64,000 nt of DNA, taken from Paramacrobiotus metropolitanus. Lineage: Eukaryota; Tardigrada; Eutardigrada; Parachela; Macrobiotidae. The position numbers and the translations under genes were made by a program. Below the pieces are notes generated by a model that searched no databases, was not told where the DNA came from, and saw nothing but the letters and a program-made list of their open reading frames with translations. Location of the stretch: assembly GCF_019649055.1 (NCBI RefSeq), contig NW_026570265.1:62001-126000 (forward strand). The letters are read 5' to 3'. Positions within the stretch are counted from its first letter, which is position 1, and every line of letters begins with the position of its first letter. This document shows positions 15,301 through 49,561 of the stretch, piece after piece.

Positions 15301-18300
15301 CAACGTTCCAGAAAGCGCGAATCGAATGCCCACTACGTTTTGGAAGTTCCTTTGATCGGTCGGCGAGTAATGACGATTCGTTCGACCAAGTACAACAGAT
15401 TGCCATTCTGAATGACAATGCCGAACAGCTTGTTACTCCAAGAACCGTCTTCGCCGGCATTTTCAACACGCCTGGGTATGTGCTAGTCTAGATTCTTGTT
15501 TGTAAACACAACGTTGACAACGTAGTATTATGCAGGTAGTGCGTGCGATGATTATGGGTTGTATTGACTTACTGTATTTTTCTGGCTCTTTATTATGCTG
15601 GCCATAGTGAATTGACCGCATGGTTTAGCTGATGATGGCATTCTGACGGTATCTTTCTTAAAAGTGCCACTTGTATAAGGTTTTATAATTTGATCGTAAT
15701 GTGTGCGTAAAGTCTAGGCTAAACGAGAAATCAGCGAGTCCTCCGCTGACATTAAGCAGACTGTTTGACCCTCTCGATCATGACACCTGCCATCTTTTGT
15801 ACACAATGTTGTTTGTGTTACCGGCTTGAATGAAACCTTGACGATTTTCTGCTGTCTTTAACATTCAGAGGGCGTTGAAAATTATGCCTAGCTACCGGTA
15901 ACGTTTTATTCTGCTACGCAGTATGCCATACTACATATCTTGCGTTCAGTGCATTAAAATGCTTGTTTGTACATGATTATATGTATACTTGAAGCATGTA
16001 AGATATGTTTCTTTCATGGAAGGCAGATTTACATTGATTCATTACAAAAATAACCATAATCATCATCAGAAATTTAGATGGCTAAACAATTTTCAGATTG
16101 TTCGTGCACATAAAAACAATTGCAGTACTGGGTAGTTTTTTAGGCTTACCTTTCCTTCTGTAGGGATACGAATGTTACTGGTACACAGTGCAAAAGTGTG
16201 CTAAATCCTTACTTGTTATTGTTAATAAACGAAAACAAACTCTTACTCGTGACAGTCGTAAGTGGTAATGTTTGGAAAACTGTTATGGGTCCATGGGTTT
16301 AGAACAACAGAATTAATATTTGTTGGTGTTCCCTTTTATAGCGTAATACTTAATTCTTGCTGAATAATACCTATTTACCATTAGGCAGATGTGGAAAATA
16401 AATTGCTAATTAATAATGCCTTCGTACAGTATGTTATACTTGGATAATTTGATTTTGTGAAATTTTGTTACAGCCACAGCCTTTTTGGGGCTGCCCTCTG
16501 CGTCTACGAGATGCGAACTATTGAGCGGGTTTTCGACGGAAGTTACCAGGAGCAGCCTAATACTGCTTCGATGTGGCAGAAACTCGATACGCCTGAATAC
16601 CGAAACTTCAACGTGAGTCGAGCGGCAGAACAGTAGATCGGGATTATCGACGTCGTTTGGCCAATCATCAGTTTAATCTTTCATTTGATGGTTTTTTGTT
16701 TGCAGTGTTCAGTGCGGAAGGACAGTCAAGGCAGAAATGTGACGGTGCTTGATCTGAAATTTGCAAGTGACCCTCGGTTAATGTTTGAAAGCGTTGGACC
16801 AGGAATTGGGCCACTGTTTGACAAGCCAGTTGTCATCGAGGAAATGACGCAGTAAGTATTACGGAATTTGCACCAGATAGCAGTCAGTGATTGATAGATT
16901 TTAGCGACTTGCTAGGTGCTAGGTACGAATACATTCAGTTGAATGCCGACAAGTAAAATTACAACAGATTTAGATGGCATTAGCAAAATAACGGGACGAT
17001 TAACGGGCGATATCTCAATCGGTTTGTGAGATACAGTACTACAATTTACTAATATTTATCAGAATTTTCGTCACAGTTCCGGATCGATAATAATCTATTG
17101 AATAATTGTATACGGTAAAGGTCTGCCAGAATCAAACAGCAAATAAATTAATGCCCTTTGTTGGATTTCGTTTTGCATTGACTACGAAGTACAAATAAAA
17201 TGATCGAATTAACGGAAAAGATATTTGTACGATCAAATCAGTTAAGGCAGAGCGTAAAGAAATTTGGTACGAATAGTCGGTGAAAGCAATACTACCATTA
17301 TTTCATGGTACGACTTCAAGAAACTTGTAAATAGAACGACTTGCTTGATTTGCGCTCGAATTACTACCAACGTATTTATCCCTATAATATAAAAACTTGT
17401 TTTACCGAACTGAACCTGTAAAGTGTTTTGCTCTCTGCAACTTTTCAGTGGCTTCCTTTTCAAACAGTAGATACCATAATTAAACGCAATTAAGCAGCGC
17501 GTTACTGCGTTTAAGCTGGCTACGGGCATCAAATTATACATCTATAAGTGTCAAAAGTGCAGATAATGTTACCTGAACCGGCGCCGCAATTTTGCGGTTA
17601 GCGTTTTCATCCGTTTGTGGCTTGTGTCAGAATTTGCTGAAATGGTATTATGGAGGTTCGTTGACTCTCGTCAAAATTTGCGCCGTCGATTGATTAGTTG
17701 ACAGATGGGCCTTATTTGTTGTCTCTGACTTAATTTTTACAGCTGAATAAGTTCAAACTATTTGATTCCACCAAACAGTTGCGTAACATTTGATTAATCA
17801 AGTGCTGAATAAGGAAATAAACTCGCTCAGGCTCACTTGCCGCATCCTTTCGGCTTTCACTGCCAATGACGCGTTAAACCCTCATTTACAAAATTCGAAT
17901 CCACAAAAACCAACCGCTTCTTTTTCTGGTAGCGCCTGTTTTTTAGTGCATTTGTATAATATAATGCAGAATACACATAGTCATATGTTACAAATATGTT
18001 GTAAAAAACCATGTTAGAAATTATAAAAACGAGTTTACAGTTATTAAAAACATCTCTCGTTTTAGGTTCCATTTTTTACAAGCGGAACGCATTTCCATAG
18101 GGAATGATCACTTTGTCTATGTCTTCTACGTAATAACGAGCCATAAAGATATCCGCAAATATGTTCTTGATCCGGCGGATACCCGTTCCGGGCGAGCCTG
18201 TATCGTGGCAGCATGGACCAGTTTATTTAAGCCACTTGAGAGCATTTTAACGATGAAGCTGTTAACGAAGCAGCAAGCGCTGATTATTGGGACATCTCAA

Positions 18301-20303
18301 CGGGTTATTCGGTTGAGTAACCACGCTTGTTATGAGCACTCTAACGAAAGGTAAACTAAGACCACTTGTGGTTTTTATCGTGCGTATGGACGCGTAGAAA
18401 AAACGTGTTATGCTCTTTTTTTCTCCGTGCAGATCCTGTATTGACTCGGGTGATCCACACTGCGGCTGGGATAGTCTTCGCCAGATGTGTCGAGCTCAAC
18501 CGGAAGGTGACAAGCAACACAACACCGGATGGACGCGTTCCCGTCTGGACAATTGTCACAGTAATACGATCTTTCCGGCATGGGACGAGCAGGCGTGGTA
18601 TCCGTGTAAAGAGGATGGCAGTCATGAATCGTGTCAGTGCCGGTCAAGAAAATGCATCGGCAGTCAGTGTCATGCAAGACAATTCCAAATGACCAATTGT
18701 ACGCGGCACGGTGGATGGACAGATTATTCTTCTTGGAGTGAATGTTCACGGGCCAACCGCTGCCAGCAAAACCGTACCCGCAGTTGTACAAAGCCTCTAC
18801 CACAATTTGGCGGTAACGACTGCGAAGGCAGTGCACTGGACAGCAGATCGTGCGATGTGGGCGAATGCGAGGCAAAAGCCGATCTGCGCATGGCTGTACC
18901 ATTGGCGGCGCCGGTGATGTCGGGGGCGCGATTTCAGGATTGGGGTCCGTGGAGCGAATGTTCACGCTCTTGTGGACGGGGAACGCAGCGGCGTACACGA
19001 TCCTGTATGTTAGGGTCACCCACGGGGAAGTGCGATGGACCCCAGGTGGAAAGCAAAGACTGCAACGTGGAAGACTGTCCACCCATGACAAAGATTGGTA
19101 GCTGGTCCATATGGATTAGTGATCCTCACAAAGGATCGGCCGAAGCGTTTGATGAACACAGATTTCAGTGTGTGGCGATTATGAATGGAACCGAACTGGA
19201 AGTTAATTTGAAGCATAACAAACGAGAATGTCCAAATGCCCGAGCGTGTCACACTGGCCGGTAATCGAGAAACTATTTTTAAAAGTTTTTGCCATGTTTT
19301 GAAGTTTTTATCTCCCTTATTGCATGGATATTGTGGTGCTTTTTGTCGACGAATCTGTCGAGAAATGGTAAATTTCTTTTGTTCTACAGTGTATACGATG
19401 CCCGTGTGGAAGCTTCCTGGAGCCCCTGGATGGAGTGCAACCATATCGGAGTACAGGAGCGTTTTTATGATTGTAAAGGTGCTGAACAACGTCCTTGTCC
19501 AGCATTTGAACAACAAGGTAGGGTATCCAAGTGGTAATTTGCTTGGATGTAAATAGTGTGGTTTTGCCTGATTCAGTCGTCCTGATCAGCAAATTTCTTA
19601 CTTTAGCCACCGAGGACACTTCATGGGGATGCTGGTCCGATTGGTCACCGTGCACGAATAACGAACAGTCCAGACATCGGATCTGCATAAAAGATAGCAA
19701 GGCGTGTCGCCATGGGGAATCGACAGTTGAGGCCAGAGTGTGCAAATTGTATGGTGAGTACGATATGTTATTTTACAGAAGAGTGACCTTTGTAAAACAG
19801 CAATGCTACGTGTGCTAAGTCTGAACGAATAACATATAGATGAGAACAATATAGAGACTGCCAGCTCCATCAACCAAGCCGCTGCTTACGGCTCCCTGGG
19901 TTATACGGGATATTTGATTGTCGGATGCGTTCTATCATTCCTGGCTGGTACCATTTTAACACTTTCGATTGTCACATATCGCCAAAAGCGGAAAAGTAAT
20001 CCGCACAACGAAGCCCCGCAGTATCCCATGGCGCCCTACATGGAGCGGCAACCAGTCCAGCTGAATACGTATGCCATCCCGCCGGGCCATCACATACCGA
20101 ACGGGGAGAGCAAAGATCATGACACTGACCATGACGACTACCCGGAAACGCAGGCCTTCGTCCCGAGCGAACCGGTCACGCCGAAAAACTTTGAACGGGG
20201 AGCACCCATGAAAGCGTCTTTCAGGGGTGACAATTTTGGCGGGAAGCCGGCGGCACAACGGCAGTTTTCCACAAGCCAGAAAAGCGATCAGTATTTTGCG
20301 TGA
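12336..20303 (+). CDS. SEMA5: Transmembrane semaphorin with TSP1 repeats (class 5 type)
   Basis: Axon-guidance type cell-surface ligand or receptor for plexins. Thirteen exons: 12336-12453, 13921-14237, 14306-14534, 14906-15036, 15203-15238, 15297-15475, 16474-16612, 16706-16851, 18066-18350, 18433-19260, 19390-19517, 19607-19753, 19840-20303. The sum is 3147 bases, 1048 residues plus stop, with all phases matching. Order: signal peptide (PFIILLFAIKLSLLECS), Sema domain (residues ~45-525; FRQILYDPVLATN, GGREALYKL, KLFVCGNNAFNPVCTWRK, YSRIARVCQ, WTTFQKARIECP, LFGAALCVYEM), PSI (CIDSGDPHCGWD), then TSP1 repeats (GGWTDYSSWSECS, WGPWSECSRSCGRGTQRRTR, SWSPWMECN, CWSDWSPC). A helix near GYLIVGCVLSFLAGTILTLS is followed by a basic stop-transfer and a ~110-residue tail. 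The region 3' of 18185 is duplicated at 38823. This is the only copy with a full Sema domain. Class 5 is inferred from Sema-PSI-TSP1-TM order. Confidence 0.9.
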
Positions 20304-21088
20304 AGTATTGTACGAAGATGAGCACAGCATAAGGTGATGGGCATACTACAGTGTAACGCTGGTGTGGATGTGGTTATGAACTGATGCTCAGATGCAGATT
20401 GTGATTGTTACGGCAGTTTAGCTGGTTTTAGACTAACGTGTCCTTGGACTTGTCTGTCTTTCATGCACCGCGGGATGCTGAGCTGGATTTGCTGTAGAGG
20501 TATTCTCGGAAAGTTTCGGTTGAGTTTTTGTATTTATGAAATCTTTCTTTGTTGTGGCTCGTTGAATTTTGTTTGGCTTTGTTGTACAAATCAAATTATT
20601 GAAGTGAGAAATTGATGTTAAATTTGCGATATGATATCTGCAACGAGTTGAAGTATTTGCGGCGTTGCACGACAGCACATTTGATGTAAGCCAAAGAAAG
20701 CCGTCGTTACAGACAATCACCTCTTACCGAACCCGTTATCGTAAACACTCTGTTTATTACAGGCATCCATTTTACGAAGTCATTGTGTTTTATGAAATTT
20801 ACGTGGTTTAGGAGTACATTGGTATACCCACATCAACGTGTGAAATGCAAATAATTACTATAAATCTGGTAAGAGAGGCCAAAAGAGTAATATAAAAACA
20901 AATTTGTTTGCAATTCAGTGCTCGAGCCAAGTGCCGTGCATATTAACAGTTTTCGGTAACCTTTCAAAGGAAACAAGCCACAATGATTATAAGTAGAAAA
21001 ATTTATTGAAGCGAATATAGAAATTGTAGATACTTAATCAACAATGAAAAATCTTAGGATGGTGGACCTATTGCAATGGGAAATATCG
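20304..21088. other. 3' gap between convergent semaphorin and DSL gene
   Basis: About 800 bp that should hold both 3' UTRs. No gene was seen. It is almost identical to 40939-41724 in the other copy, apart from small indels near 20515-20650. Confidence 0.5.
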
Positions 21089-24000
21089 TTACAAAGTCCC
21101 GCCATTAGTAAGCTGCTTAAATGTGCTGGTCGTCCGGATGCGTGCAATGGGCGGATGACTTCCTGATCTGTGCGACAGATCCGAAGAGCGGACGGTACTG
21201 TATACACGTTCACTGGACGCGGCATTGTCCGTCACCGCGCATGTGGAAGGTTGCAGGGAAACGATATCGTCAGCCGGACACAGTTCGGAACTACTGTCCT
21301 GAAACATGGGATTGTCGAAGGCCGATACCATCAGGCTGCAGTTGTGCGAAGTCGAAGGGGGTCCGTCGGAGAAAGGACTATCCAACCGATACCGTGAATG
21401 GGAACTTCTAGCTAGGATGATTACAATCCCCAAAAGTATTACGACGATAACGCAGAGTGCCGCTATGAACATAATTATACCCGGGGAATGCGGAATATAT
21501 CCCTGCAACAAAACAATCAATTACGGGTTGTGACCGGTGCGATGACCTTTCGTTTCAACATTTTTTCGGCCTCTACCGAAGACGGGTGCCTACACTATGA
21601 ATTACGAAAACGCAAACCTGCGCACCAGACGGACTGATTTGTTTGTAATTGTTCATTATAAAATGTTTCAACAAAATTTTGTTATTAGGTTTACGCACGG
21701 TAGAATTAAGGATGGCAATGTTAGTGACAAACTTACTGCATACAACGTAGCCGCATTGTGGGCGTCCAGCAAGTGCAGCGCAGCTTGAATTATGACGCGG
21801 AACTCCGATGGAGTGAAGACGGCGGTTTGATTGGCTAAGGCGTACACGGTAATAGTTGGTTGCATAGATTGGTTGGAGCTACAAGATCACAGTCACTTTT
21901 TCAAAATTCTGCACGATCTGAAATTGCAATAGTCAAAATTCACTCACATTGACAGACCGGTCAGCTCTACAGATGTCGTCAAAGCCGCAGTGGTTCCGCT
22001 GGTTTCGCTGCGCTCTTGAAGCCGCTCGCGGGCTACCTGGTAGATGGTCCAGTTCAGTTTGTCCAGGAATGAACTATCGTGAATGGAGCTCGCCGTCAGT
22101 CCCGTTCCAAGCGGTACATCATAATGAACAAAAGCGACACCTTGACGAAAAACATTGTATTTATTATCCTGGAGTCTTAAATCGGATGCTGTACCCAGAG
22201 ACTCTGGCAAAGCGTGGCGGGTATTCTGGGTCGCTTGTTTAGTATATGTGCAATAAAAGTACAACTTACGACTTTCTGTCAGCGAGTTCGCATGCTTTGG
22301 CCCGAGTGTCGTATTATTATGATCTGCAGTTAAAAAAGATGTGGACGAACTGGACTACGAATCGCTGACCTTCTGGGGATGGCCTGTCGTCACCGGTGAA
22401 ACTGTTACTGCGCTGGCTTCCTCTATCGTGTCAGTGCTGTGTGTTGCAGCTGAGATTTCCGGCAAAATTGTTTCCGGTGGAATGCTGGTAGTCAGTACAG
22501 TTCCGTTCAGGTTATTCAGCAAATGTGGGCCAGTCATTTCTGGGCTCGGATGGTCTGTTCCTGCTCTTGTGGTGTCAGTTGTCGTAGATCCTGTTGTCTG
22601 CGAGGGTTCGGAGGTGCCGGTCGTGATAGTACTAACAAGTGTGGTTCCTGTTGGAGCGCCGGTTGTCACGGATTCTTTAATAAGCACCGGTTCAGTAACC
22701 TGTGAGGTTTTAAAAATTATCGTGAACATTCATTCGAAAAACAAACCTGGAGCGGAAAACATTACCGGGGTTTCAGGTTGAGTAGCGTACACGATCTGCA
22801 CAATGTCATACGCGCTGGAGTCAGTGACTGTTGACGGACCGGCAACCGTCGAAAGCTCCACAATCTCCAATTCGTCGAAATCTTTGACTTTGCCAAATTG
22901 TTCCTTTTCGGACAATGCAGTTGGTGCACCAGTTTTGGAGGAGACAGTTGTTTCCGTTACAGTGGTAAGGTTGACGGAAGTTTGTACAATAAGAAGGTTT
23001 GGTATCGCTATACTATTTTCAGTTACTGTATGATTTTCGGCCAATGATATAACGGCAGCAGTCGCTTCGCTTGTGGAGGAGGAGCCGGTCTCCAAATCTG
23101 CAAGTGCAGATAACGTTGTTGCTGGGACGTGCGTCGCATTGTCCGACGTTGACGTAACCGTGGTCTTTTTTTCGGTGGTCGAGCTTTCGGTAGACGGGGA
23201 CGTTGTCGCCAGGTAAGTCAAGCTGCCCATAAGTAGCGATACGGTTAACGGCCACACTGTCGAAGACGGTGTTGGATGGACAGTGGCCATCCCGCCGCTG
23301 GTGACGGCTTCGGCCGATACATTGCTGGAATGCTTTTCAAAATACGGTTCATGACCTTCTTCTTCGTGGATGGTCGTGCCTTCCATTCGTACCACCTGAA
23401 CGTGTATAGGATTGATACCGCCATCGGGATCCGTGTGAAGTGTTTCGGCGGCCAATGTGATGTTGCCGGTAGTTGGCAGTGCGTCGCCGATGGGCTCGCT
23501 GCTGTTGGTCACCTCCATTTCGTATGCCACCACGTCATCGGTTTGCGAGCCAAACGTTAAAGGATGAATGTTGAGATTCTCCGACAGCATCTTTGCATTA
23601 CAGAAGTCGCCGGTCCAGCCCGGTTCACAGACACTTTGTCCGGTTCGGGAGTCGCATGTGAAATGGTCGTCTGGACGCGGCACACAATATGTGGAACATT
23701 CCGAATCGTAGTAATGGGGCAGGCACTGAATTCGAGATTCCAGTTGCAGGCTGAAATTGTCAAACCACTATGAATTAAAAAAATTTTCAGTTTCACTAAA
23801 TAAACTAATAAATAAAAGAAACAAATAATAAATAAAAATATTAATATAGATATTAAAATACTATGTAACTTGCACATTATGATACTACATTGATACATAT
23901 CGGCATGCAAACAACTGACAAATTATATGCCCGGTGCAGGTGGTGGCGTTGTTTATTAATGAAAGTACCAATAGATTAAGAATAGACGTGTTTAGACGTA

Positions 24001-24171
24001 CTTTTATAATAAATTTGTATGTGTGGAACTGTATTTAAGCCAATAATTTTTAAGCGCGCATGATAAGAATGCATTTCGCCATACCTGGTGTTGGCCGCTG
24101 TGGAACCGGTCATCCGTAAGCGCAGCATGCCTCCGGATGGAGGCTGTTGAAGAAGTATGTATGTGAAGTTA

Positions 24172-24802
24172 AATAGCCTGTAATGAATATTTTAGCTTTA
24201 AATCTAATATGTCATTGTAAATAAATTTTTAAACACACTAAAAATAAACATCTGAATATGTAAGATGATTTTGTTGTATCGATTGAGAATAGCCACCAAA
24301 GTTATTTTCTATGGTACGTAGGGCGATTCGGCAAACCCGGATCCAACAGTGGATCCGGATGCGCAACTCTGGTTCCGTGTCCATTGTTCTTCGCCGGGCG
24401 ATTCAACAACCCTTTGGGGCGATTCAGCAAACTTTATTTTCGACAAATAGTTAACTTTTACAACGCAGCATCTGTTATTTATGTATTTGCATGTAATAAA
24501 TAAGTGTTGTCTATCTCCATGGCATGCAGTAAGTTGTTGGTCTGTCTGTCAATATAATGCTTTAAATTGGACGAAGGGTTCACATTCACCACAACGGAGC
24601 GTAATCAAACGGCGATTTTTTATAACTTTGGTGGCTATTTCTATTTCGTTAATAGGCGCCTCAAATAGTAATCATTTTATTACCTCAAATAATAATTTAG
24701 CTCACCCCTCATTTTCAAATCCATTCTTCATATCATTTGAGTATAGACGATAAAATCAACTTCAAGGAGCGCTAGGCAGTACTATCAGTACGTGAGCTTT
24801 CT
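24172..24802. mobile_element. ~620-bp insertion with an internal inverted repeat
   Basis: Present in the left DSL copy and absent at the matching place (about 44794-44800) in the right copy. The exact edges are blurred by small changes. Inside is an 18-bp inverted repeat: AATAGCCACCAAAGTTAT at 24288-24305 and its complement at 24622-24639. Between the arms are three copies of a short motif close to GGGCGATTCRRCAAMC (near 24321, 24398 and 24418). No coding frame resembling a transposase is visible, so it may be a non-autonomous DNA transposon or a nested composite. Confidence 0.65.
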
Positions 24803-25389
24803 AATCCTATTACCGGTCCTTTTGCCGTATTAGCTCCAAGGAAACTGCCACGCTCCCTCTCATTGATGCGGATGCGCATTTCCACCCCACGCCAGGCGTG
24901 TGTGATGTTAAAGACGAAAGGGTTTTTAAGAGTGTTCAGTTGTTCACCGAAGGTTACTTCTGCGGTATTATCATACGGTCCAAATGTGAAAGGTCCAGCG
25001 AAATCACACGTGGCCAACGGATCAACAGTGTCGTTCCTGCATAAAACATTTTATGGTTAACAACCACTTTTCGTATAATAAACACTATCCCCAGTCTTTA
25101 CATGTTATAAAACCAATACAAAAGAAATCAAAACTTATTTAATTTACCATAAGATATTGTCGAAAATAGGATTTTGAAACAACCAGACAGGCTGCACAGA
25201 GTGCGTCCTGTGTAGTGTTGTTTTGTGAGTGCGGCAGTGTGCCGGTAAGCAAATGTTTCTTGGCAGTCATTACAGGAAATTAGCAGTGCAGCTTTAATAC
25301 ATGTTAAAATTAATTTGAACTGAACAAAAATGTGATCAAACAAATTACTTTCCTTCTATGGCAGTTGGGAAGACTATTGCTAATAGTAC

Positions 25390-25620
25390 ATACTACTAAT
25401 AGGAAACTAATTCACGAATTCTTACGCCAGCGTCTATCGATTGAAATTCAAAGAGGCAATGCAGTTTCTGTTCTTGGCACTATCGATGGAACAGACAATT
25501 TAAGTGAAATTTTTCTGTTGTAATTAATCCCGTTTTTGTTACAAACTTGTGAAGCGACTGGCTTGAGCTAATAAGAATATAGATTGTAACCCTTCGCATA
25601 GGAAACCGGTTCAATTTTTT
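25390..25620 (+). mobile_element. Retroelement C-terminal fragment in left DSL intron
   Basis: About 200 bp present only in the left copy. It encodes a stretch with LRQRLSIEIQRGNAVSVLGT, matching the ending of the open frame at 4966-5466 (LKQRFSLAVVKGNATAVLST). It is too short for a full domain, so it is a remnant of the same element family. Edges are approximate because the flanking intron has diverged. Confidence 0.5.
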
Positions 25621-25840
25621 AGTACTCTCATTTTCCTAATCTAAATCATACTTAAACCCTGGCGATTGCAAGTTATTGTAGTAATTGTAGTGCAGTATTT
25701 GTGACTAACCAGGTCGCATCGGTGGTAGTAAAGCAGACGGTGAAATGGGGATCACATTTGTTGGACGAAAACCATCCCGAGTCGCATCTTTGCCCGTCAG
25801 ACATCATATGCCGAGTATTAGAAAATTTAACAAATCGTAC

Positions 25841-26717
25841 GCGAAATTGAACAGTGGACTAGTGCGCGTCGGCCAAGCACTGGAAGAAAATTTGTTGCAG
25901 GTAAACCCAAAGAAATGCCAAGCGATGTATTTATGTTCTGACCGAAATACAGAACCGGATCCGGAAGTTGTCATTAATGGGTCGGTAATTGGCATAGCGA
26001 AATGTGTACGATATCTTGGTGTCGAAATTGATAATCACCTGAAGTGGAATGAGCAGTTCAGAAAGGTACAGCGGAAAGGGAATTTTGGCATTGCCATGAT
26101 TAAACGGGCACAGCAAGGGCTCAGCATGTCACAGCGCAAAGGTCTCTATCACGCCTGCTTCGGTTGCCATATCGCACACCAGTCGCCGGTATGGTCTGCA
26201 GCGTCTTCGACTGAGCGCGACAAGCTAGCCGGACTACAACGTAAAGCTCTGAAAACCATCACTGATTACAAGATGCCGGTTACTCCGGAACTGTATCAGA
26301 AGCTGGGTATTCCTCACATATTCGACCGATGGCGGCAGAGCGATGCGGTGTGGTTGTTCAAGTTCTGGAACAAAGATCAGTTCCCGCTTCCGCTTCCGGC
26401 CTACCTCCTGGACATGATCCAAGTAAAAGATAACACCACGCGCTACAACTTGCGGAAGCCGGCCCGGATCGATGTTACGCGGGCAAAGAAAGTTATCGGA
26501 GGGTGGACTATGGAAATGCGGCTAAAGCGTCTTCTTGATAAACTTCTTGCTGTTAATCCTAAAATTCTCGAAGCCAGTTCTGTACCTTCTTTCAAATTTC
26601 TACTCAGATCTGTTAAACTCTCCTAAACATTTTTGTTAGCGGAAAATTGTTTTTGTTCGACCAGACTCGAAGTCCCTTCGGGGTTGTCTGCTCTTGTGCC
26701 GTAATAATAATAATAAT
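25841..26717 (+). mobile_element. 5'-truncated LINE with (TAA)n tail
   Basis: A continuous + strand frame runs through the insert to a stop at 26624-26626. It reads like the end of a non-LTR retrotransposon reverse transcriptase and its downstream region: LQVNPKKCQAMYL, VRYLGVEIDNHLKW, RKGLYHACFGCHIAHQSPVW, LAGLQRKALKTIT and NTTRYNLRKPAR. Catalytic RT motifs are missing, so the copy is 5' truncated. It ends in six TAA units at about 26701-26717, a tail type known from I/CR1-like LINEs. The right DSL copy shows the empty site (CGTAC/AGTTAATG), so the insertion can be placed to the base and post-dates the duplication. No clear target-site duplication is seen. It interrupts the MNNL exon of the left DSL gene. 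Confidence 0.85.
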
Positions 26718-27442
26718 AGTTAATGTTGCGACGATTTCATTTTCATGCGTAGTGCGTGGCATAATTTGCCCATGAGCTCCAAGAAGTAAGTAGTACGCAA
26801 GAAAAATTAGGGAATACATGTTTGCGACACACTAGAATCTTTTATCAACGGCATCCAGAAATTATACATGCACAGCAGACCGATGCCAATTGCAATCTTC
26901 GTGGGAAAGTTAGTTTTCTTGAACACTAAAATGACTACAATTATCGGCGTTTACAATGGAACTTCTCCTGCAGCACTTAAACACCGACCGGACTGACCAG
27001 TGGGCGTTGCCAATTTGACCATTTCAAACAAGATAACGCTTAAAGAGATGGCCATAACAGCTTTCACTTTCCCTTTCCTCTATGGCGCGGCGCACAGACG
27101 AAACGACGAAGAAAACAACGACGACGTGGAAATACGGCTGGGAAAGGCAGCAGCAGATCGCTCAAGTACCCTGTCTAGTGTCTACCTCCAGCTTGTCAGG
27201 AATGCTCTGCGCACACTGTGCAGTGTGTACCATTCAACGCTCTGACAAATCACATAGCATGCTCCGAAATCTCTTCCTTCTTCAATTTTCGTGTAAACAC
27301 ATAATTGTCAAACACATACATCATAACCACGTTCAGGTACGAAAATTGTCTACTATTAAGCCAAACCATAGCACGAATGAATGGCCAAACAAATCTCATA
27401 AATGATCTGACAAAACTGGTTAAGAAAATTTCACACGCGAGG

Positions 27443-30148: not shown

Positions 30149-30549
30149 AATGCCCCTTCGTCGCAGCAATTTTTTAATGGATAATCGACGGAATATGCCA
30201 GCGGCCTGGAGTCGCGGAAGATGCGGAATGTTTACCGATTTAGGAAAGCAATCCGAAATTTACTCCGCGATACACTGTCAGGGAAAAACCTTGGGTGTAA
30301 ATTGTGCGATATCAACAGGAATGAGCAGATGCACAACCAACAGTCAGTCAAATTGTTTACATCACTGGCTCAAACTGGAAGCGGAAACAATTAACTAGAG
30401 TAAAACAAGGAAAGAGAAAAATGTAAGAGCAGACTCTTTTCTGGTCAGAATGTCAGATTAAACTATTTTTGGAATATTACAATTCACAAACTGACACAAA
30501 TAACAAGTACAGTAATAACCAACTGTAACCCATTAGAACACCAACCTGA

Positions 30550-30909: not shown

Positions 30910-31406
30910 GACATTATTTGGACGTAGTGCTAGAAACGGGAAAGCGGGAAAGCCCAACTGCAATTTTAGTTTACGGAGTCCAAGGTTTCATTTCTCACGC
31001 AAACGGATTGCAGATTCTGAGAATCAAAATCAGTGATGAGTTTCACGAGCGCAACATACTGACAGTAGAGATGCACAATAGTGCACCAACTTGCACCTTA
31101 CTGCCTTCTCAGTAGGGAAGCCTTACATATACATTACTAGCCATGAGGCATGAGGCTTGCAGCCATGCATCTGCAGTGCTGCACTTTTTATTTGCGTTTA
31201 GTTTTGGTTCTCGGTTTGTTATCATTGTGATGAAATTTTAAGGCGGTAATTTACGGATATTGTTGTCATTCCTCCCTGTTTCGTTTGGCTAGCGGTTAGT
31301 TTTTCCTGCACAAAACGTCTGGACGTTTTTCTTCTACTAGAACTTTTTCTGTTATGGATGTCTGATCCCTGTGTTTGAGTTCAAGTGCAGCGATTCGTTA
31401 ACGGTC

Positions 31407-38138: not shown

Positions 38139-38551
38139 CCGCCCGATTCCATGGGACTAATTGATGGATCATGAGCAGTGCTAGCACGACCTTACTGTTG
38201 CTGCATGTTAAGCTTCAAAATTGTGATATTGTACTACTTTGGCAAAACTTTTTAACCCAGTGTTCTCTTTAAATGTTCCCCGCAAAGGCGCAGATAAAAT
38301 TGAATTTCATGTGGAATATTCGTATTGCTTTTTATTATGTTAAGGCATTTTGAAATCATTGCATACTTTTTTTGTTAAATAACTTTTGCCTTCATTACCA
38401 TGTTGGTCATCGTATCCTATTAGGTGATGCAGTCGAAAAAAATACAGATAAAGTTTGTGTTAAGATGCAGTTGTGTGTGAAGATGCAATGTGTCTCTCCA
38501 TAATCGCTTCATGCGCGTTCAGAATGAAATGTACCGGTAAATGGCCGTAGT

Positions 38552-38797
38552 TCATGGTGAGTGGTTAATCAGCGCGATAAATTCGATAAACCATCGCGCT
38601 GTCGGGCGGCAACACTGGAAACCAAAGAACATGAACAGCGGAAAGGTTGATTGAACAAAACGCATAATATGCGCGAACGTGAGCTGGTAGGCAGTTAATA
38701 TCATCAGTCCAATTAGCCCAGCTGTAGCTCCCCATGGGCCATAGCCCGTTGCATCAGCATCTTGCCGTATCCGATTTTCGATCTCGTTCCAGCTCAA
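38552..38797 (-). CDS. Partial hydrophobic protein at duplication edge
   Basis: An 80-codon frame with two likely membrane segments (GATAGLIGLMILTAYQLTFA and STFPLFMFFGF) and a polar start (WNEIENRIRQDADATGYG). There is no ATG at its start, so it looks like the 3' exon of a gene whose upstream part should lie to the right. The right copy of the duplication begins 26 bp away at 38823. It may therefore be a gene cut by the insertion of the duplicated block, or a chance frame. No family recognised. Confidence 0.35.
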   Translation of the reverse strand: MSWNEIENRIRQDADATGYGPWGATAGLIGLMILTAYQLTFAHIMRFVQSTFPLFMFFGFQCCRPTARWFIEFIALINHSP

Positions 38798-38822
38798 AAT
38801 TCAAATGCCATCAGTTACATCT

Positions 38823-40938
38823 GTTCCGGGCGAGCCTGTATCGTGGCAGCATGGACCAGTTTATTTAAGCCACTTGAGAGTATTTTAACGATGAAGCTGT
38901 TAACCAAGCAGTAAGCGCTGATTATTGGGACATCTCAACGGGTTATTCGGTTGAGTAATCACGCTTGTATGAGCACTCTAACGAAAGGTAAACTAAGACC
39001 ACCTGTGGTTTTCATCGTGCGTATGGACGTGTAGAAAAAACGTGTTATGCTCTTTTTTCTCCGTGCAGATCCTGTATCGACTCGGGTGATCCACATTGCG
39101 GCTGGGATGTCTCCGCCAGATGTGTCGAGCCCAACCGGAAGGTGACAAGCAACACAATACCGGATGGACGCGTTCCCGTCTGGACAAATGCCACAGTAAT
39201 ACGATCTTTCCGGCATGGGACGAGCAGGCGTGGTATCCGTTTAAAGAGGATGGCAGCCATGAATCGTGTCAGTGCCGGTCAAGAAAATGCATCGGCAGTC
39301 GGTGTCATGCAAGACAGTTCCAAATGACCAACTGTACGCGGCACGGTGGATGGACAGATTATTCCCCGTGGAGTGAATGTTCACGGGCCAACCGCTGCCA
39401 GCAAAATCGTACCCGCAGCTGTACAAATCCTCTACCACAATTTGGCGGTAACGACTGCGAAGGCAGTGCACTGGACAGCAGATCGTGTAATGTGGGCGAA
39501 TCCGAGGCAAAAGCCGATCTGCGCATGGCTGTACCATTGGCGGCGCCGGTGATGTCGGGGGCGCGATTTCAGGATTGGGGTCCGTGGAGCGAATGTTCAC
39601 GCTCTTGTGGACGCGGAACGCAGCGGCGTACACGATCCTGTATGTTAGGGTCACCCACGGGGAAGTGCGATGGACCCCAGGTGGAAAGCAAAGACTGCAA
39701 CGTGGAAGACTGTCCACCCATGACAAAGATTGGTAGCTGGTCCATATGGATTAGTGATCCTCGCAAAGGATCGGCCGAAGCGTTTGATGAACATCGGTTT
39801 CAATGTGTGGCGGTTATGAATGGAACCGAACTGGAAGTCAATTTGAAGCATAACAAACGAGAATGTCCAAATGCCCGAGCGTGTCACACTGGCCGGTAAT
39901 CGAGAAACTATTTTTAAAAGTTTTTGCCATGTTTTGAAGTTTTTATCTCCCTTATTGCATGGATATTGTGGTGCTTTTTGTCGACGAATCTGTCGAGAAA
40001 TGGTAAATTTCTTTTGTTCTACAGTGTATACGATGCCCGTGTGGAAGCTTCCTGGAGCCCCTGGATGGAGTGCAACCATATCGGAGTACAGGAGCGTTTT
40101 TATGATTGTAAAGGTGCTGAACAACGTCCTTGTCCAGCATTTGAACAACAAGGTAGGGTATCCAAGTGGTAATTTGCTTGGATGTAAATAGTGTGGTTTT
40201 GCCTGATTCAGTCGTCCTGATCAGCAAATTTCTTACTTTAGCCACCGAGGACACTTCATGGGGATGCTGGTCCGATTGGTCACCGTGCACGAATAACGAA
40301 CAGTCCAGACATCGGATCTGCATAAAAGATAGCAAGGCGTGTCGCCATGGGGAATCGACAGTTGAGGCCAGAGTGTGCAAATTGTATGGTGAGTACGATA
40401 TGTTATTTTACAGAAGAGTGACCTTTTGTAAAACAGCAATGCTACGTGTGCTAATTCTGAACGAATAACATATAGATGAGAACAATATAGAGACTGCCAG
40501 CTCCATCAACCAAGCCGCTGCTTACGGCTCCCTGGGTTATACGGGATATTTGATTGTCGGATGCGTTCTATCATTCCTGGCTGGTACCATTTTAACACTT
40601 TCGATTGTCACATATCGCCAAAAGCGGAAAAGTAATCCGCACAACGAAGCCCCGCAGTATCCCATGGCGCCCTACATGGAGCGGCAACCAGTCCAGCTGA
40701 ATACGTATGCCATCCCGCCGGGCCATCACATACCGAACGGGAGAGCAAAGATCATGACATTGACCATGACGACTACCCGGAAACGCAGGCCTTCGTCCCG
40801 AGCGAACCGGTCACGCCGAAAAACTTTGAACGGGGAGCACCCATGAAAGCGTCTTTCAGGGGTGACAATTTTGGCGGGAAGCCGGCGGCACAACGGCAGT
40901 TTTCCACAAGCCAGAAAAGCGATCAGTATTTTGCGTGA
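38823..40938 (+). pseudogene. Truncated semaphorin pseudogene (right copy)
   Basis: Copy of the semaphorin from the middle of its last Sema exon to the stop. The signal peptide and nearly all of the Sema domain were not duplicated. Lesions against the left copy: CAG CAA became CAG TAA in the Sema remnant (near 38912); one base was lost in CACGCTTGTTATGAG (near 38968); one base was lost after GCTGGGAT in the PSI region (near 39109), shifting the frame; and one base was lost in the tail at AACGGGAGAGC (near 40739). The TSP1 exon is still open downstream with WGPWSECSRSCGRG. With no promoter, no start and several frame breaks, this is a non-processed pseudogene. Confidence 0.92.
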
Positions 40939-41724
40939 AGTATTGTACGAAGATGAGCACAGCATAAGGTGATGGGCATACTACAGTGTAATGTTGGTGT
41001 GGATGTGGTTATGAACTGATGCTCAGATGCAGATTGTGATTGTTACGGCAGTTTAGCTGGTTTTAGACTAACGTGTCCTTGGACTTGTCTGTCTTTCATG
41101 CACCGCGGGATGCTGAGCTGGATTTGCTGTGGAGGTATTCTCGGAAAGTTTCGGTTAAGAGTTTTTGTATTTATGAAATCTTTGTTTGTTGTGGCTCGTT
41201 GAATTTTGTTTGCCTTTGTTGTACAAATCAAATATTGCAGTGAGAAACTGATGTTAAATTTGCGATTTGATTTTTGCTACAAGTTGAAGTATTTGCGGCG
41301 TTGCACGACAGCACATTTGATGTAAGCCAAAGAAAGCCGTCGTTACAGACAATCACCTCTTACCGAACCCGTTATCGTAAACACTCTGTTTATTACAGGC
41401 ATCCATTTTACGAAGTCATTGTGTTTTATGAAATTTACGTGGTTTAGGAGTACATTGGTATACCCACATCAACATGTGAAATGCAAATAATTACTATAAA
41501 TCTGGTAAGAGAGGCCAAAAGAGTAATATAAAAACAAACTTGCTTACAATTCAGTGCTCGAGCCAAGTGCCGTGCATATCAGCAGTTTTCGGTAACCTTT
41601 CAAAGGAAACAAGCCACAATGATTATAAGTAGAAAAATTTATTGAAGCGAATATAGAAATTGTAGATACTCAATCAACAATGAAAAATCCCAGGATGGTG
41701 GACCTATTGCAATGGGAAATATCG

Positions 41725-44700
41725 TTACAAAGTCCCGCCATTAGTAAGCTGCTTAAATGTGCTGGTCGTCCGGATGCGTGCAATGGACGGATGACTTCCT
41801 GATCTGTGCGACAGATCCGAAGAGCGGACGGTACTGTATACACGTTCACTGGACGCGGCATTGTCCGTCACCGCGCATGTGGAAGGTTGCAGGGAAACGA
41901 TATCGTCAGCCGGACACAGTTCGGAACTACTGTCCTGAAACATGGGATTGTCGAAGGCCGATACCATCAGGCTGCAGTTGTGCGAAGTCGAAGGGGGTCC
42001 GTCGGAGAAAGGACTATCCAACCGATACCGTGAATGGGAACTTCTAGCTAGGATGATTACAATCCCCAAAAGTATTACGACGATAACGCAGAGTGCCGCT
42101 ATGAACATAATTATACCCGGGGAATGCGGAATATATCCCTGCAACAAAACAATCAATTACGGGTTGTGACCGGTGCGATGACCTTTCGTTTCAACATTTT
42201 TTCGGCCTCTACCGAAGACGGGTGCCTACACTATGAATTACGAAAACGCAAACCTGCGCACCAGACGGACTGATTTGTTTGTAATTGTTCATTATAAAAT
42301 GTTTCAACAAAATTTTTGTTATTAGGTTTACGCACGGTAGAATTAAGGATGGCAATGTTAGTGACAAACTTACTGCATACAACGTAGCCGCATTGTGGGC
42401 GTCCAGCAAGTGCAGCGCAGCTTGAATTATGACGCGGAACTCCGATGGAGTGAAGACGGCGGTTTGATTGGCTAAGGCGTACACGGTAATAGTTGGTTGC
42501 ATAGATTGGTTGGAGCTACAAGATCACAGTCACTTTTTCAAAATTCTGCACGATCTGAAATTGCAATAGTCAAAATTCACTCACATTGACAGACCGGTCA
42601 GCTCTACAGATGTCGTCAAAGCGGCAGTGGTCCCGTTGGTTTCGCTGCGCTCCTGAAGCCGCTCGCGGGCTACCTGGTAGATGGTCCAGTTCAGTTTGTC
42701 CAGGAATGAACTATCGTGAATGGAGCTCGCCGTCAGTCCGGTTCCAAGTGGTACATCATAATGAACGAAAGCGACACCTTGACAAAAAACATTGTATTTA
42801 TTATTCTGGAGTAGTTAAATCTATTACTGTACACAGAAACTCTGGCAAAGCGTGGCGGGTATTCTGGATCGCTTGTCTAGTACCTATATTGTACTTACAA
42901 TAAAAGTATAACTTACGACTTTCTGTCAGCGAGTTCGCATGCTTTGGCCCGAGTGTCGTATTATTACGATCTGCAGTGAAAAAAGGTGTGGGCGAACTGG
43001 ATTGCGAATCGCTGACCTTCTGGCCATGGGCTGTCGTGGCCGGTGAATCCGTAACTGCGCTAGATTCCACTACCGCGTCAGTGCTGTGTGTTGCAGCTGA
43101 GATTTCCGGCAGAATTGTTTCCGGTGGAATGCTGGTAGTCAGTACAGTTCCGTTCAGGTTATTCAGCAAATGTGGGCCAGTCATTTCTGGGCTCGGATGG
43201 TCTGTTCCTGCTCTTGTGGTGTCAGTTGTCGTAGATCCTGTTGTCTGCGAGGGTTCGGAGGTGCCGGTCGTGATAGTACTAACAAGTGTGGTTCCTGTTG
43301 GAGCGCCGGTTGTCACGGATTCTTTAATAAGCACCGGTTCAGTAACCTGTGAGGTTTTAAAAATTATCGTGAACATTCATTCGAAAAACAAACCTGGAGC
43401 GGAAAACATTACCGGGGTTTCAGGTTGAGTAGCGTACACGATCTGCACAATGTCATACGCGCTGGAGTCAGTGACTGCTGACGGACCGGCAACCGTCGAA
43501 AGCTCCACAATCTCCAGTTCGTCGAAATCTTTGACTTTGCCAAACTGTTCATTTTCGGACAAAGCAGTTGGTGCAACAGTCTCAGAGGAGATAGTTGTTT
43601 CCGTTACAGGAACAAAATCAATGGAAGTATGTACATCGGGAAGGCTCGGTGTCGTTAGAACAGTTTCGGTTACTGTATGATTTTCGGCCAATGATATAGT
43701 GGCAGCAGTCGTTTCGATTGGGGAGGAGGAGCTGGTCTCTAAATCTGTGATAACAGGTAACGTTGTTGCTGGAACGTGCGTCACATTGTCCGACGTCGAC
43801 GTAACCGTGGTCTTTTTTTCGGTGGTCGAGCTTTCCGTTGACGGCGATGTTGTCGCCAGGTAAGTCAAGCTGCCCATGAGCAGCGACACCGTTAACGGCC
43901 ACACTGTCGAATACGGTGTTGGATGGACAGTGGCAATCCCGCCGCTGGTGACGGCTTCGGCCGATACATTGCTGGAATGCTTTTCAAAATACGGTTCATG
44001 GCCTTCTTCTTCGTGGATGGTCGTACCTTCCATTTGTACCACCTGAACGTGTATAGGATTGATGCCGCCATCGGGATCCGTGTGGAGTGTTTCGGCAGTT
44101 AATGTGACGTTGCCGGTAGTTGGCAGTGCGTCGCCGATGGGCTCGCTGCTGTTGGTCACCTCCATTTCGTATGCCACCACGTCATCGGTTTGCGAGCCAA
44201 ATGTTAAAGGATGAATATTGAGATTCTCCGACAGCATCTTTGCATTACAGAAGTCGCCGGTCCAGCCCGGTTCACAGACAATTTGTCCGGTTCGGGAATC
44301 GCATGTGAAGTGGTCGTCTGGACGCGGCACACAGTATGTGGAACATTCCGAGTCGTAGTAATGGGGCATGCACTGAATTCGAGATTCCAGTTGCAGGCTG
44401 AAATTGTCAAACCACTTTGAATTAGAAAATTTTCAGTTTCACTAAATAAACTAATAAATAAGAGAAACGAATATTAAATAAAAATATTAATACAGATATT
44501 AAAATACTATGTGACTTGCACATTATGATACATATCGGCATGCAAACAACTGACAATTTATATGCCCGGTGCAGGTGGTGGCGTTGTTTATTAATGAAAG
44601 TACCAACAGATTAAGAACAGACGTCTTTAGACGTATAACAAATTTGTATGTGTGGAACTGTATTTAAGCCAATAAATTTTAAGCGCGCATGATAAGAATG

Positions 44701-45773
44701 CATTTCGCCATACCTGGTGTTGGCCGCTGTGGAACCGGTCATCCGTAAGCGCAGCATGCCTCCGGATGGACGGCTGTTAAAGTAGTATGTGAAATTATCT
44801 ATTACCGGTCCTTTTGCCGTATTAGCTCCAAGGAAGCTGCCACGCTCCATCTCATTGATGCGGATGCGCATTTCCACCCCACGCCAGGCGTGTGTGATGT
44901 TAAAGACGAAAGGGTTTTTAAAACTGTTCAATTGTTCACCAAAGGTTACTTCTGCGGTATTATCATACGGTCCAAATGTGAAAGGTCCAGCGAAATCACA
45001 CGTGGCCAACGGATCGACAGTGTCGTTCCTGCATAAAACATTTTATAAACAACCGCTTTTCGTATCATAACCAAACTTATAAAATCGTTATAAAAGAAAT
45101 CAAAACTTACTTGTTAGTAAATTTACCGTAACATACTCGTATTATCGGCAATAGGATTTTGAAGCAACTGGGACAAGCTGCACAGGGCACAGAGTGCGTA
45201 GGACTGTTTTGTGTGTGCGGCAGTGTGCCGGTAAGCAAACTTTTCCAGGCAGTTATTACAGGAAATTAGGAGTACCGCTTTAATCCATACTTGTTAAAAT
45301 TAATTTAAAATGACTTGTGAATAAACATTCGATCAAATAAACGACTCTGCTTCTGCTGCAGTTGAGAAAATGATTACCAATAGCAAAACAGGAAGTAAGT
45401 AATAGGAAGAAAAAATAGAAACACTAACAATAAGAGGAAAACGGTTGAATCTTTATTTCCCTCATTTTCCTAATCTAAATAATTACCTAAATCCTGGCGA
45501 TTGGAAGTTATTGTAGTAACTAGTAATATTTGTGACTAACCAGGTCGCATCGGTGGTAGTAAAGCAGACGGTGAAATGGGGATCGCATTTGTTGGACGAA
45601 AACCATCCCGAGTCGCATCTTTGCCCGTCAGACATCATATGCCGAGTATTAGAAAATTTCACAAATCGTACAGTTAATGTTGCGACGATTTCATTTTCAT
45701 GCGTAGTACGTGGCATAATTTGCCCATGAGCTCCAAGAAGTAAGTTGTAAGCAAGAAAAATTAGGGAATACAT
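41725..45773 (-). CDS. DSL-domain Notch-ligand-like protein with Ser/Thr-rich stalk
   Basis: Single-pass protein with a Delta/Serrate/LAG-2 signature. Exons: 45773-45485 (signal peptide MYSLIFLAYNLLLGAHG, then an MNNL-like C2 region with RFVKFSNTRHMMSDGQRC and PHFTVCF); about 45028-44716 (NDTVDPLATCDFAGPF...FVFNITHAWRG); 44397-43394 (DSL: HYYDSECSTYCVPRPDDHF, then CDSRTGQIVCEPGWTGDFC); Ser/Thr-rich stalk to about 42915; 42783-42584 and 42517-42372 (membrane-proximal region with FLDKLNWTIYQVARERLQ and SEFRVIIQAALHLLDAHNA); about 42243-42195; 42142-41725 (helix IIMFIAALCVIVVILLGIVII and a ~100-residue tail ending in STFKQLTNGGTL). No EGF repeat is visible after the DSL domain. Donor and acceptor phases agree except one join before the helix, which needs a weak donor. 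DSL ligands activate Notch on neighbouring cells; that role is inferred. The left copy is broken, so this appears to be the only complete one. Confidence 0.8.
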
Positions 45774-46409
45774 GTTTGCGACACACCAGAATCTTTTATC
45801 AATGGCATCCAGAAAATTATACTTGCACAGCAGATCGATGCCAATTGCAATCTTCGTAGGAAAGTTCGTTTTCATGAACACTAAAATGACTACAATTACC
45901 GGCGTTTACAATGGAATTTCTCCTGCAGCACTTAAACACCGACCAGACTGACCAGTGGGCGTTGCCAATTTGACCATTTCAAACAAGATAACGCTTAAAG
46001 AGATGGCCATCACAGCTTTCACTTTCCCTTTCCTCTGTGGCGCGGCGCACAGGCGAAACGACGAAGAAAACAACGACAACGTGGAAATACGGCTGGGAAA
46101 GGCAGCAGCAGATCGCTCAAGTGCCTGTCTACCTCCAACTTGTCAGGAATGCTCTGCGCGCACTGTGCACCATTCAACACTATGACAAATCACACAGCAT
46201 TCTGCGAAATCTCTTCCTTCTTTGCAGTTTTCGTGTAAACACAGAATCGTCAAACACATACATCATAACCACGTTCAGGTACGAAAATTGTCAACTATGC
46301 CAAACAAATCTCATAAATGATCTGACAAAACTGGTTAATAAAACTTCATACGCGAGGTTAAACGAAAAACAGGAAATCTCTCTTGTTCATTCCTGTACAA
46401 AAATCACCA

Positions 46410-49153
46410 TCACAAATCATTGGGAGGACTGGCCAACTTCTGGCCATCGGAAGCCGGGTCGGAAATGGAAGAGCGCGAATAGTATCGGGCAATGAGTATC
46501 GCCACAATAACAACACCAATGCCGGCTGCCATACCAAATTTCATCCACGAACGGTCATGTTGGGGTGCGATCGCCGGTGGCTTTTTCGTTGGTCTGGTAA
46601 ATTTGTTTTCGCGAGCCTCTTCCTGAAGCTGTCTAACCAAAATGAACGAAAACATTACTGGAAAATGAAATACATAAAGGCAAATCTATAAAAAACTTCC
46701 ATCGCCAAAATGGATCAAATTACAAAAGAAATATGTTAATAAATTTAAGGACTTCATGTTTACGCTTTCTATAAAAGAACCACAGAGAGCGAGCTTTTTT
46801 AAATTAATTTAAAGGAAAATCAATAAACTAATTGTGCACTGCCGTAAAAGTGCAACAGAACTGTACTCCGTGAAAATGCAACGGAACGATATTTTCAGAA
46901 TTCAAAGCAGCACTAAGGGTTCAACAATTGTTCTGTAATCATGATAATAGCATCTAATCAGCCTTGGACTTTAAGCAGAATCGGCCATTACGAAAGCCCA
47001 GATAGCAAATACGTACGGTACACGTTCAGCCTCCGGGGCAATCGTGGCAGGAGGGAATTGAAGGTAAAGATCCAGGGCGTCTTTGATTAACGTTTCCCAT
47101 GAAAGAGTGGTGGGGAGATAATTGAGAAATCCGTGAACTTCGGCCTGATCCTCAGGCAACGACAGGATCCGATGCGACAGGCTGTTCACTATCTGTTTTA
47201 AGAAAAGCCTTTAAACTGATTAAATCCTTCACGTGCTTGGCATGATAACTTACAGCAGCGCCCAGGTAGATCGGCATGTGGGGATCGGAGGCAATAAACA
47301 GATCGCACAGGCGAACAACCAGTGTTAGGGGAACATTTTCTTGTATGTTGTGACTGTACCAAGTGATAAGCCATGGCAAAGCAAACATTGTGCCAATGTC
47401 TGACCTAAAAAACGTCAGAACGGTTAAAAGGATAATTATATTAATTTTATGCATTAATGTACCAATACAAACAAATAAGCACACAAATTCAATTATGCAC
47501 ATTCTCACGAGCTCAGTGATTGAATAAAAATACTAACACTCGCTCACTGCAATTAACATTTAATAACACCTGCTCATTTACGGTCGAATGGAAAACCCCA
47601 TATTAAAAAAGGTCTGTAAAATAATCGTACGTCACACAACTACAGTACTACCACCATTACGCATCCACACTATGCATCACGCATGACCCCAAAGCAATCC
47701 AGTTCATGACTAATCCAAAAAAGTGATAATACAAACACATTGTACATGTATCTCATGCAGATTTGGTGATACACGTTGAAGCGGTAATACTCATAAAACG
47801 GGAATTAAAAAAATTTCCAAAATTATCATTTACAATCTTTCAGATAAAGTCATAAAGGCAACGACCTACCGTATTAAAAAATCATGGAGATGGGGGTTAC
47901 ATCTGCGGATCAGTGGATAAATGAACTGCAGCATAGTAACCGTATCTAATAACGTTGGCGTCATGAAAACGCGGAAATGAGTCTGGCAAAGTTTTCGAAG
48001 AACGGCCACCGTCACTACAAAACAAAAACACTGTGTATTTTAGGCTATGAAACAATGAGCAGATTACTAAACTAAGTAGCAAATAAGTAAAATTATAGTT
48101 CCAACCTAAGTAGAAGTACTTATTACTAATGATAAGTTTAAGTAAGTAGTTCTAAACTTCCCGAAACGTATACTACCAACAATATATCCACATGACTATG
48201 ATAAAAGTACTGTATAATAATACATGTACACCCATTATATGTTTATTCAGGCAACAGCCAATTAACATAACAAGCAAGCCCGCGCCGATAGACGCTAATA
48301 AAAAAACCGAGGTTTATTTACACCCATTATTACTGCAGAGGCAGCTGAAAACTATTGCGTGATGCGTGTGAACTGGTATGAACACAGTTAACTAAAAATA
48401 CAGTGCAGATCGCAATAAAGCGTATCGGATATAAATCTGGTAAAGCTTACGGTTTTCATCGCGAAGCACCAAATGCACGGTGATGGCGATATCATGGAAT
48501 CCTTGGTAGTAATGATAATCTGTGCCGTGTAGTGTCCTCATAATTACGCGCTTCAACACATCCTGCATTTCATCGCGGACTTCCGAATCCAAATCAGGCG
48601 GATATCTTTTGAGCAATCTCTCGACATCCAAGTCCACCACACGCGCATCTCGGTGCTCCTTCATGTCCTCTTCAGCTGCGAAAACCCATACAAATTTTAA
48701 TGACTTATCATCATGAACAGAAACCATGAACTAACGAAACACCAACCAAAAATAGTATTTTAAACACCTATTAAAATCTGCACCGCAAAATTTGTACCAC
48801 TGTAACAAGGTCAATTAAAGCGGACTGCCTTACTTGGTTCGTCATGTTTTGCAAAGGGATTTATATCGAGAATTCTAGGCCACGCTTGCTGACGAATTTT
48901 ATTCGTCAAAAGTCCGCCAGGTAGAACGGCCATCTGGCGCAGTCGCTCTGTGTTCGCAGAGCTGGCACTGGCCAGCAATGCATGGATTTCGCGAACCTTC
49001 CCGGGGATATCGTCTACAACAAAAACTCTAGGATTCCAGTGGCTGAAAGGTACGGTCTTATACAGTCTGTTTTAAGACCAAATTAGCAAGAGTTATGAAA
49101 ATTTTACCTTCTTCAGACATCGTGGTTCTGGAAGTTGCTACATCGACCCGCAT
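46410..49153 (-). CDS. TBC1D20: TBC1D20-type Rab GTPase-activating protein
   Basis: TBC1D20 is an ER-anchored GAP for Rab1/Rab18-type GTPases. Exons: 49120-49108 (MSEE), 49013-48834 (LRQMAVLPGGLLTNKIRQQAWP), 48675-48451, 48014-47870 (THFRVFMTPTLLDTV), about 47404-47254 (GTMFALPWLITWYSHNIQ), about 47192-47010 (LIKDALDLYLQFPP) and the last exon about 46650-46410. Both catalytic fingers are present: Arg in VVDLDVERLLKRYP and Gln in HYYQGFHD. A C-terminal helix (FGMAAGIGVVIVAILIARYY) is the expected tail anchor. An in-frame ATG at 49153 would add 11 residues; the start at 49120 fits the family less ambiguously. The first intron uses GAAG/GTAAAA and TTGTAG/ACGAT, joining as SEEDDIPGKVREIH. The left copy has lost the Gln finger and anchor, so this is probably the functional gene. 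Confidence 0.87.
48227..48330. repeat. ~80-bp insertion between 12-bp direct repeats
   Basis: TACACCCATTAT occurs at 48227-48238 and again at 48319-48330. The ~80 bp between them has no counterpart in the left copy of this intron (near 29300-29325). It ends in an A-run and ACCGAGGTTTATT. The pattern fits a short retroposed insert with a target-site duplication, in a TBC1D20 intron. Confidence 0.55.
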
Positions 49154-49561
49154 AATGCCCCTTCGTCGACAGGCTCTTCGCAGCAATTTTTTAACGGATA
49201 ATCGACGGAATATGCCAGCGACCTGGAGTCGCGGAAGATGCGGAATGTTTACCGATGTAGGAAAGCAATCCGAAATTTACTCCGCGATCACTTTGCTGTC
49301 AGGGAAAAACCTTGGGTGTAAATCGTGCGATATCAACAGGAATGAGCAGATGCACAACCAACAGTCAGTCAAATAGTTTACATCACTGGAAGCGGAAACA
49401 GTAAACGGTAAACCGACAGAAATTAACTAGAGTAAAACAAGGAAAGAGGAAAACGTAAGCGCATGACTCTTTTCTGGTCAGATTAAACTATTTTGGAATA
49501 TTACAATTCACAAACTGACACAAATAACAAGTACAGTAATAAAAATAAACCAACTGTAACC

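Follow-up and report, generated by a model that had tools for sequence, protein, structure and literature searches.

What becomes of a small group of neighbouring genes once the group has been copied as a block? This question is raised by a 64,000-nucleotide stretch of DNA from the tardigrade Paramacrobiotus metropolitanus (contig NW_026570265.1, here C45, positions 62001-126000), which we call the window and in which a semaphorin gene, a gene for a DSL-domain protein and a TBC1D20 gene occur twice. We compared the two copies of this block with each other and with the whole assembly, which comprises 533 contigs and 169,799,020 bases. The sequence directly shows both copies, the lesions in them and the open reading frames. 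The surviving copies lie on different sides and each gene is disabled in one copy, when function is read from the sequence alone. In our judgement this is probably the outcome of a segmental duplication followed by random loss, i.e. divergent resolution.

The block was delimited by self-BLAST of the window (guanine-plus-cytosine content 42.0%), which gave direct copies at 18185-30518 and 38823-49542, on the same strand and in five collinear pieces of 84-96% identity. The presence of the three-gene block in two copies, reported in a first-pass annotation of this DNA, was thereby confirmed. A right-flank search extended the match to 49561 (62 bases, 89%), and by letter comparison the two copies agree up to approximately 30531 and 49561, respectively. 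The left copy (18185..30531, forward strand) begins in exon 9 of the semaphorin gene and ends upstream of TBC1D20, and the right copy occupies 38823..49561 on the forward strand. Over the whole alignment 614 differences were found among 10,462 paired bases.

On the left, the semaphorin gene (12336..20303, forward strand) is complete, as first annotated. The model, built from homology and splice sites and checked with Pfam, has 13 exons and 1048 amino acids, no internal stop, and AG or GT at every internal exon edge. The whole protein matched Sema (E 5.4e-16) and TSP_1 (E 7.1e-8), and a PSI domain was detected only when the exon-10 reading frame was scanned alone. The protein did not match the repeat number usual for class 5 semaphorins. 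Aligned to this gene, the right semaphorin is a broken fragment that runs from part of exon 9 to exon 13 (38823..40938, forward strand) and carries a nonsense codon (CAA to TAA at 38912-38914) in its first remaining exon, together with three exonic deletions of 1 base pair (bp). The earlier description of a dead gene without its 5' end stands as far as this stop and the absence of exons 1-8 and of the first part of exon 9 are concerned; the fragment is truncated exactly at the block edge, and, besides decay, the loss may just as well stem from the breakpoint of the duplication or from a subsequent deletion.

The DSL gene survives on the other side. The right copy (41725..45773, reverse strand; model from homology and splice sites, with Pfam) is open, with 7 exons, 921 amino acids, no internal stop and AG or GT at all internal exon edges, and its protein contains a DSL domain (E 1.2e-9). 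Neither EGF repeats after this domain nor an MNNL domain before it were reported when the spliced right protein was scanned with Pfam (E 0.001), and we therefore regard the product as a DSL-domain protein and not as a canonical Notch ligand. A long Ser/Thr-rich stretch was also seen in this protein. The left copy (21089..26819, reverse strand), aligned to the right one, is broken at several points. An 877-bp 3' piece of a long interspersed nuclear element (LINE, a non-long-terminal-repeat retrotransposon) was found by self-BLAST and genome search to lie antisense in exon 1 (25841..26717, forward strand), and a frame change is present close to the end of that exon. The reverse-transcriptase match of the LINE piece is weak (E 0.0068); its closest genome copies, among the best 40 of 366 candidates, are 96-98% identical, which places its arrival late relative to the divergence of the blocks. 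Comparison of left and right further revealed a 635-bp insert in exon 2 (24172..24806), of which no other copy was reported in the genome search, and codon alignment showed a nonsense codon in exon 4 (CAA to TAG, 22355..22357, reverse strand). A DSL exon had only two matches in the genome, both in the window, and the DSL domains reported in the genome are four, one on C4, one on C2 and those of the two window copies.

The same distribution was found for TBC1D20. The right gene (46410..49153, reverse strand), modelled from homology and splice sites, is open over seven exons and 381 amino acids, with no internal stop and with all internal splice sites AG/GT. Its RabGAP-TBC domain was recognised by Pfam (E 1.7e-21), and the structure of human TBC1D20 (4hl4) was the closest solved relative (E 2.9e-61). 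The left gene (27495..30148, reverse strand), aligned to the right one, retains all seven exons and differs from it at 15 residues in all. Trp337 is replaced by a stop (TGG to TAA at codon 337, 27629-27631) before the predicted membrane anchor, the last exon has a 1-bp deletion, and the glutamine of the YxQ motif, present as Gln133 on the right, is changed to lysine (Gln133Lys). In TBC domains this glutamine acts as the catalytic 'glutamine finger' (PMC8636488). In the genome search all TBC1D20 exon matches (12/12) fell on C45, six per copy. The first-pass annotation had called the left DSL and TBC1D20 genes disabled and the right ones apparently intact; the lesions described here bear out the former, and the open models agree with the latter. 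If these open frames are expressed and functional, DSL and TBC1D20 function would now reside only at the right copy.

Could the disabled copies instead share the work? The anchor-less left TBC1D20, or the right semaphorin fragment, might yield a useful shorter product, and for TBC1D20 this fits a frame that is open to codon 336, GT-AG sites that are intact in the alignment, and a ratio of amino-acid-changing to silent divergence (dN/dS) of 0.12 between left and right. We nevertheless hold such a division of labour to be very unlikely, as the change of the catalytic Gln to Lys co-occurs with the pre-anchor stop in left TBC1D20, and as the right semaphorin has lost its start exons and meets a nonsense codon in the first exon that remains.

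Between the copies lies topoisomerase II (TOP2), which had been annotated as a neighbour separating the two loci. That it is an intact neighbour was rejected by an exon comparison with a second copy on contig C147, where a 24-exon model codes for 1592 amino acids without a stop. The window TOP2 (31407..36622, forward strand) is a relic and itself one of the losers: 18 of the 24 exons are whole or nearly so, exon 8 is a remnant, and exons 6, 7 and 22-24 are missing, so that the TOPRIM region and the C-terminal exons are among the parts lost. In the genome search the exon-8 (TOPRIM) peptide was not found on C45 and had matches on C147 and C5. The window sequence matches C147 at 89-90% and C5 at 75%; C147 holds the only complete TOP2 of the close pair (window and C147), in an orientation inverted relative to that of the window. 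The deletion in the window may be a mis-assembly. If it is genuine, TOP2 would be a fourth gene with a complementary outcome. A repeat at 62945-63095 of the window is 98% identical to C147:225379-225529, which adjoins the C147 TOP2 copy.

C147 also carries a partial third copy of the semaphorin, without exon 1 and most of exon 2. It is damaged by a nonsense codon and by net gains in exon 3 (20 bp) and exon 4 (5 bp), and it ends after exon 11, where a relic of DSL exon 7 comes next. There are hence three partial copies of this gene neighbourhood (left, right and C147), and the account of two copies given at first is correct for the window and incomplete for the genome. Long reading frames that we take to be reverse-transcriptase-like are situated at L006:7548-9634 on C147, a few kilobases (kb) past the dead semaphorin.

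How long the dead copies were maintained can be judged from their divergence. Silent divergence (dS) between left and right is 0.135 for TBC1D20 and 0.167 for DSL exon 3, and between the window and C147 it is 0.145 for TOP2, with a dN/dS of 0.17; the TBC1D20 introns differ by 15%. Because dN/dS is low for both TBC1D20 and TOP2, selection would appear to have acted on the dead copies of these two genes during the greater part of their existence. By our arithmetic, and on the assumption that the open copy kept its amino-acid sequence throughout, the dead TBC1D20 could have been free of selection for at most about one quarter of the time and TOP2 for about one third, estimates that conversion between the copies would blur. 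Signs of such conversion were seen in a run-length analysis of left versus right, where two conversion-like tracts consist of 614 (19205..19818) and 834 (21152..21986, an inner 1-bp gap uncounted) identical aligned bases. Shuffling the first 6 kb 1000 times gave a longest identical run of 176 on average and 466 at maximum; a third observed run, of 365, falls inside that range. The dS between C147 and the left semaphorin is likewise uneven, 0.079 in exons 3-9 and 0.419 in exons 10-11, and together with the two long runs this suggests that sequence was exchanged between the copies by gene conversion.

Taken together, our results suggest the following course of events. A segment with the 3' half of the semaphorin, DSL and TBC1D20 would have been duplicated, the copy coming to lie roughly 8 kb further downstream, on the far side of the TOP2 sequence. 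Related sequence, comprising semaphorin, the terminal part of DSL, and TOP2, is also present on C147. The right block may have been inserted, or it may be what is left of a tandem duplication that was once longer. During a large part of their existence the copies would have remained under selection and exchanged sequence by gene conversion, and the genes would then have been lost one by one, through separate random losses on different copies. The presumed survivors are the semaphorin on the left, DSL and TBC1D20 on the right, and, for the close pair, TOP2 on C147. Such complementarity requires no cause or coordination, because three genes that each lose one of two copies at random give a split outcome in 3/4 of the cases by our arithmetic. 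The original proposal that each function survives once, split between two loci, agrees with this for semaphorin on the left and DSL and TBC1D20 on the right, and has to be widened to three loci with C147. Its further claim that genes were relocated relative to their neighbours is also consistent with our data, as duplication and decay would in effect have moved the working genes.

Several observations weigh against this scenario. Conversion makes dS a poor clock, as the values of 0.079 and 0.419 within one semaphorin comparison illustrate, and the run-length shuffle on which the two tracts depend handles coding and non-coding sites alike. A dN/dS comparison of the copies, proposed in the first-pass annotation, gave the low value for TBC1D20 mentioned above and a higher one for DSL, 0.38 over exons 3-7 (0.33 in exon 3, 0.94 in exon 4, 0.11 in exons 5-7; left exons 1 and 2, with their large inserts, left out of the count), so that constraint on the dead DSL copy is unsupported. 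The right semaphorin, for its part, looks constrained. When the changes between left and right were polarised with C147 as outgroup (1333 sites), 19 were assigned to the left branch, 16 to the right branch and 130 to the side of C147. Within codons, the left branch has 13 silent and 4 amino-acid-changing differences and the right branch 9 silent and 6 changing, whereas 73% changing would be expected under neutrality (P 0.007, 15 changes). A constrained fragment must once have been longer or have been overwritten from a working gene.

This last result bears on a simpler history, in which the right semaphorin was born truncated and only DSL and TBC1D20 were ever redundant, both dying on the left. 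The complementarity would then be no more than a truncated end combined with one-sided decay. The block edge (18185/38823) indeed falls inside exon 9, and the adjoining sequence as far as 38823 belongs to a different family on C14: a piece at 38486..38823 (reverse strand) matches C14:1015682-1016008 at 83% in the genome search and stops at the very base where the right copy starts, which means that the junction joins two duplicated pieces. With the broken TOP2 ending at 36622, it indicates that the interval itself was patched together. The ratio of silent to changing differences on the right branch argues weakly against a semaphorin that was free of selection from birth, and conversion from the left gene could also have produced the apparent constraint. 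We regard a truncated birth as quite possible, though short of probable. Divergent resolution fits the sequence, but the 'clear case' of the first-pass annotation is too strong a wording for it.

The assembly itself is a further point on the negative side, since the likely source assembly passed through a haplotype merger. As described in its publication, this assembly, of Paramacrobiotus sp. TYO, was built from Nanopore reads by Canu, run with heterozygosity-preserving options, then polished with nanopolish and Pilon and merged with HaploMerger2, and its BUSCO redundancy was 1.05 (PMC8277472). The two copies could then be two haplotypes, or a chimeric join, set in tandem by the assembler or the merger, and stretches of 96-100% identity between the blocks would agree with this. 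We consider such an artefact unlikely. A dS of 0.135-0.167 and the 15% divergence of the TBC1D20 introns are large values for a pair of alleles, and no allelic partner exists for the intervening sequence, whose TOP2 counterpart on C147 is both inverted and complete. The left-flank search (4000-12500) was dominated by repeats (best 40 of 624 candidates) and the Sec8 gene alone was used instead; its single genome match is itself, and no second right flank was seen among the best 40 of 65 candidates. These flanks, with the low published BUSCO redundancy, also led us to set aside a genome-wide doubling of haplotypes. The divergence and the single-copy left flank thus favour separate loci in the animal over alleles.

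Errors of single bases are a different matter. Of the four exonic 1-bp deletions, of which the right semaphorin has three and left TBC1D20 one, three fall within homopolymer runs of 2-4 bases and may reflect errors in sequencing. Because of these runs and the Nanopore-based likely source assembly the deletions were not used as main evidence, and the main lesions are independent of them.

Other features of the window were noted in passing. An open frame of 145 amino acids with hydrophobic stretches and no Pfam match lies between the copies (30550..30987, reverse strand), and the sequence past the broken TOP2 end, at 36622-38200, contains open stretches that may encode a signal or membrane segment, again with no Pfam match. 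A repeat of about 560 bp at 4953-5511 has 99% identical copies on several contigs, and a short element with inverted ends at 56366-56523, which resembles a small transposon, has copies of 87-99% identity on many contigs.

Reciprocal gene loss, or divergent resolution, has reportedly been found in polyploids (PMC9157103) and in the rice DGS1/DGS2 pair (PMC5555463). The likeness is that duplicates lose function at alternative copies, by which working genes shift position; here, however, what was duplicated is a local multi-gene block on one contig, with a third copy on another contig, rather than an entire genome or just one pair of genes, and the losses are seen within one assembly and not between populations or species. 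Fractionation after polyploidy similarly removes neighbouring genes from either copy, but a published BUSCO copy number near 1 and the single-copy left flank oppose a genome-wide event. Abrupt switches between identical and diverged tracts, as in gene conversion between segmental duplicates, are in our case deduced from run lengths, for which homogenisation of the assembly consensus is an alternative. We noticed no description of this cluster in the literature searched, in which no search by gene names was made for this species. The process is a known one and the locus a good example of it, to which the third locus adds interest.

If the duplication were an artefact after all, it would serve as a warning on haplotype-merged Nanopore assemblies. 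If it is real, the locus would show how a small multi-gene segment decays in complementary fashion with no duplication of the genome, the dead copies being still readable, and gene-order comparisons could shift through duplication and loss rather than through movement. An extended version, which we think improbable, is that of a triplicated neighbourhood in which every gene has one working copy left, at a locus of the three that differs from gene to gene, the survivors being patched by conversion and the losses recent enough for populations to differ. If such populations were crossed, part of the offspring would be left without functional TBC1D20, TOP2 or semaphorin. Should the losses prove recent and variable between populations, this locus would offer a ready test, in a tardigrade, of the hypothesis that duplicate loss causes hybrid incompatibility.

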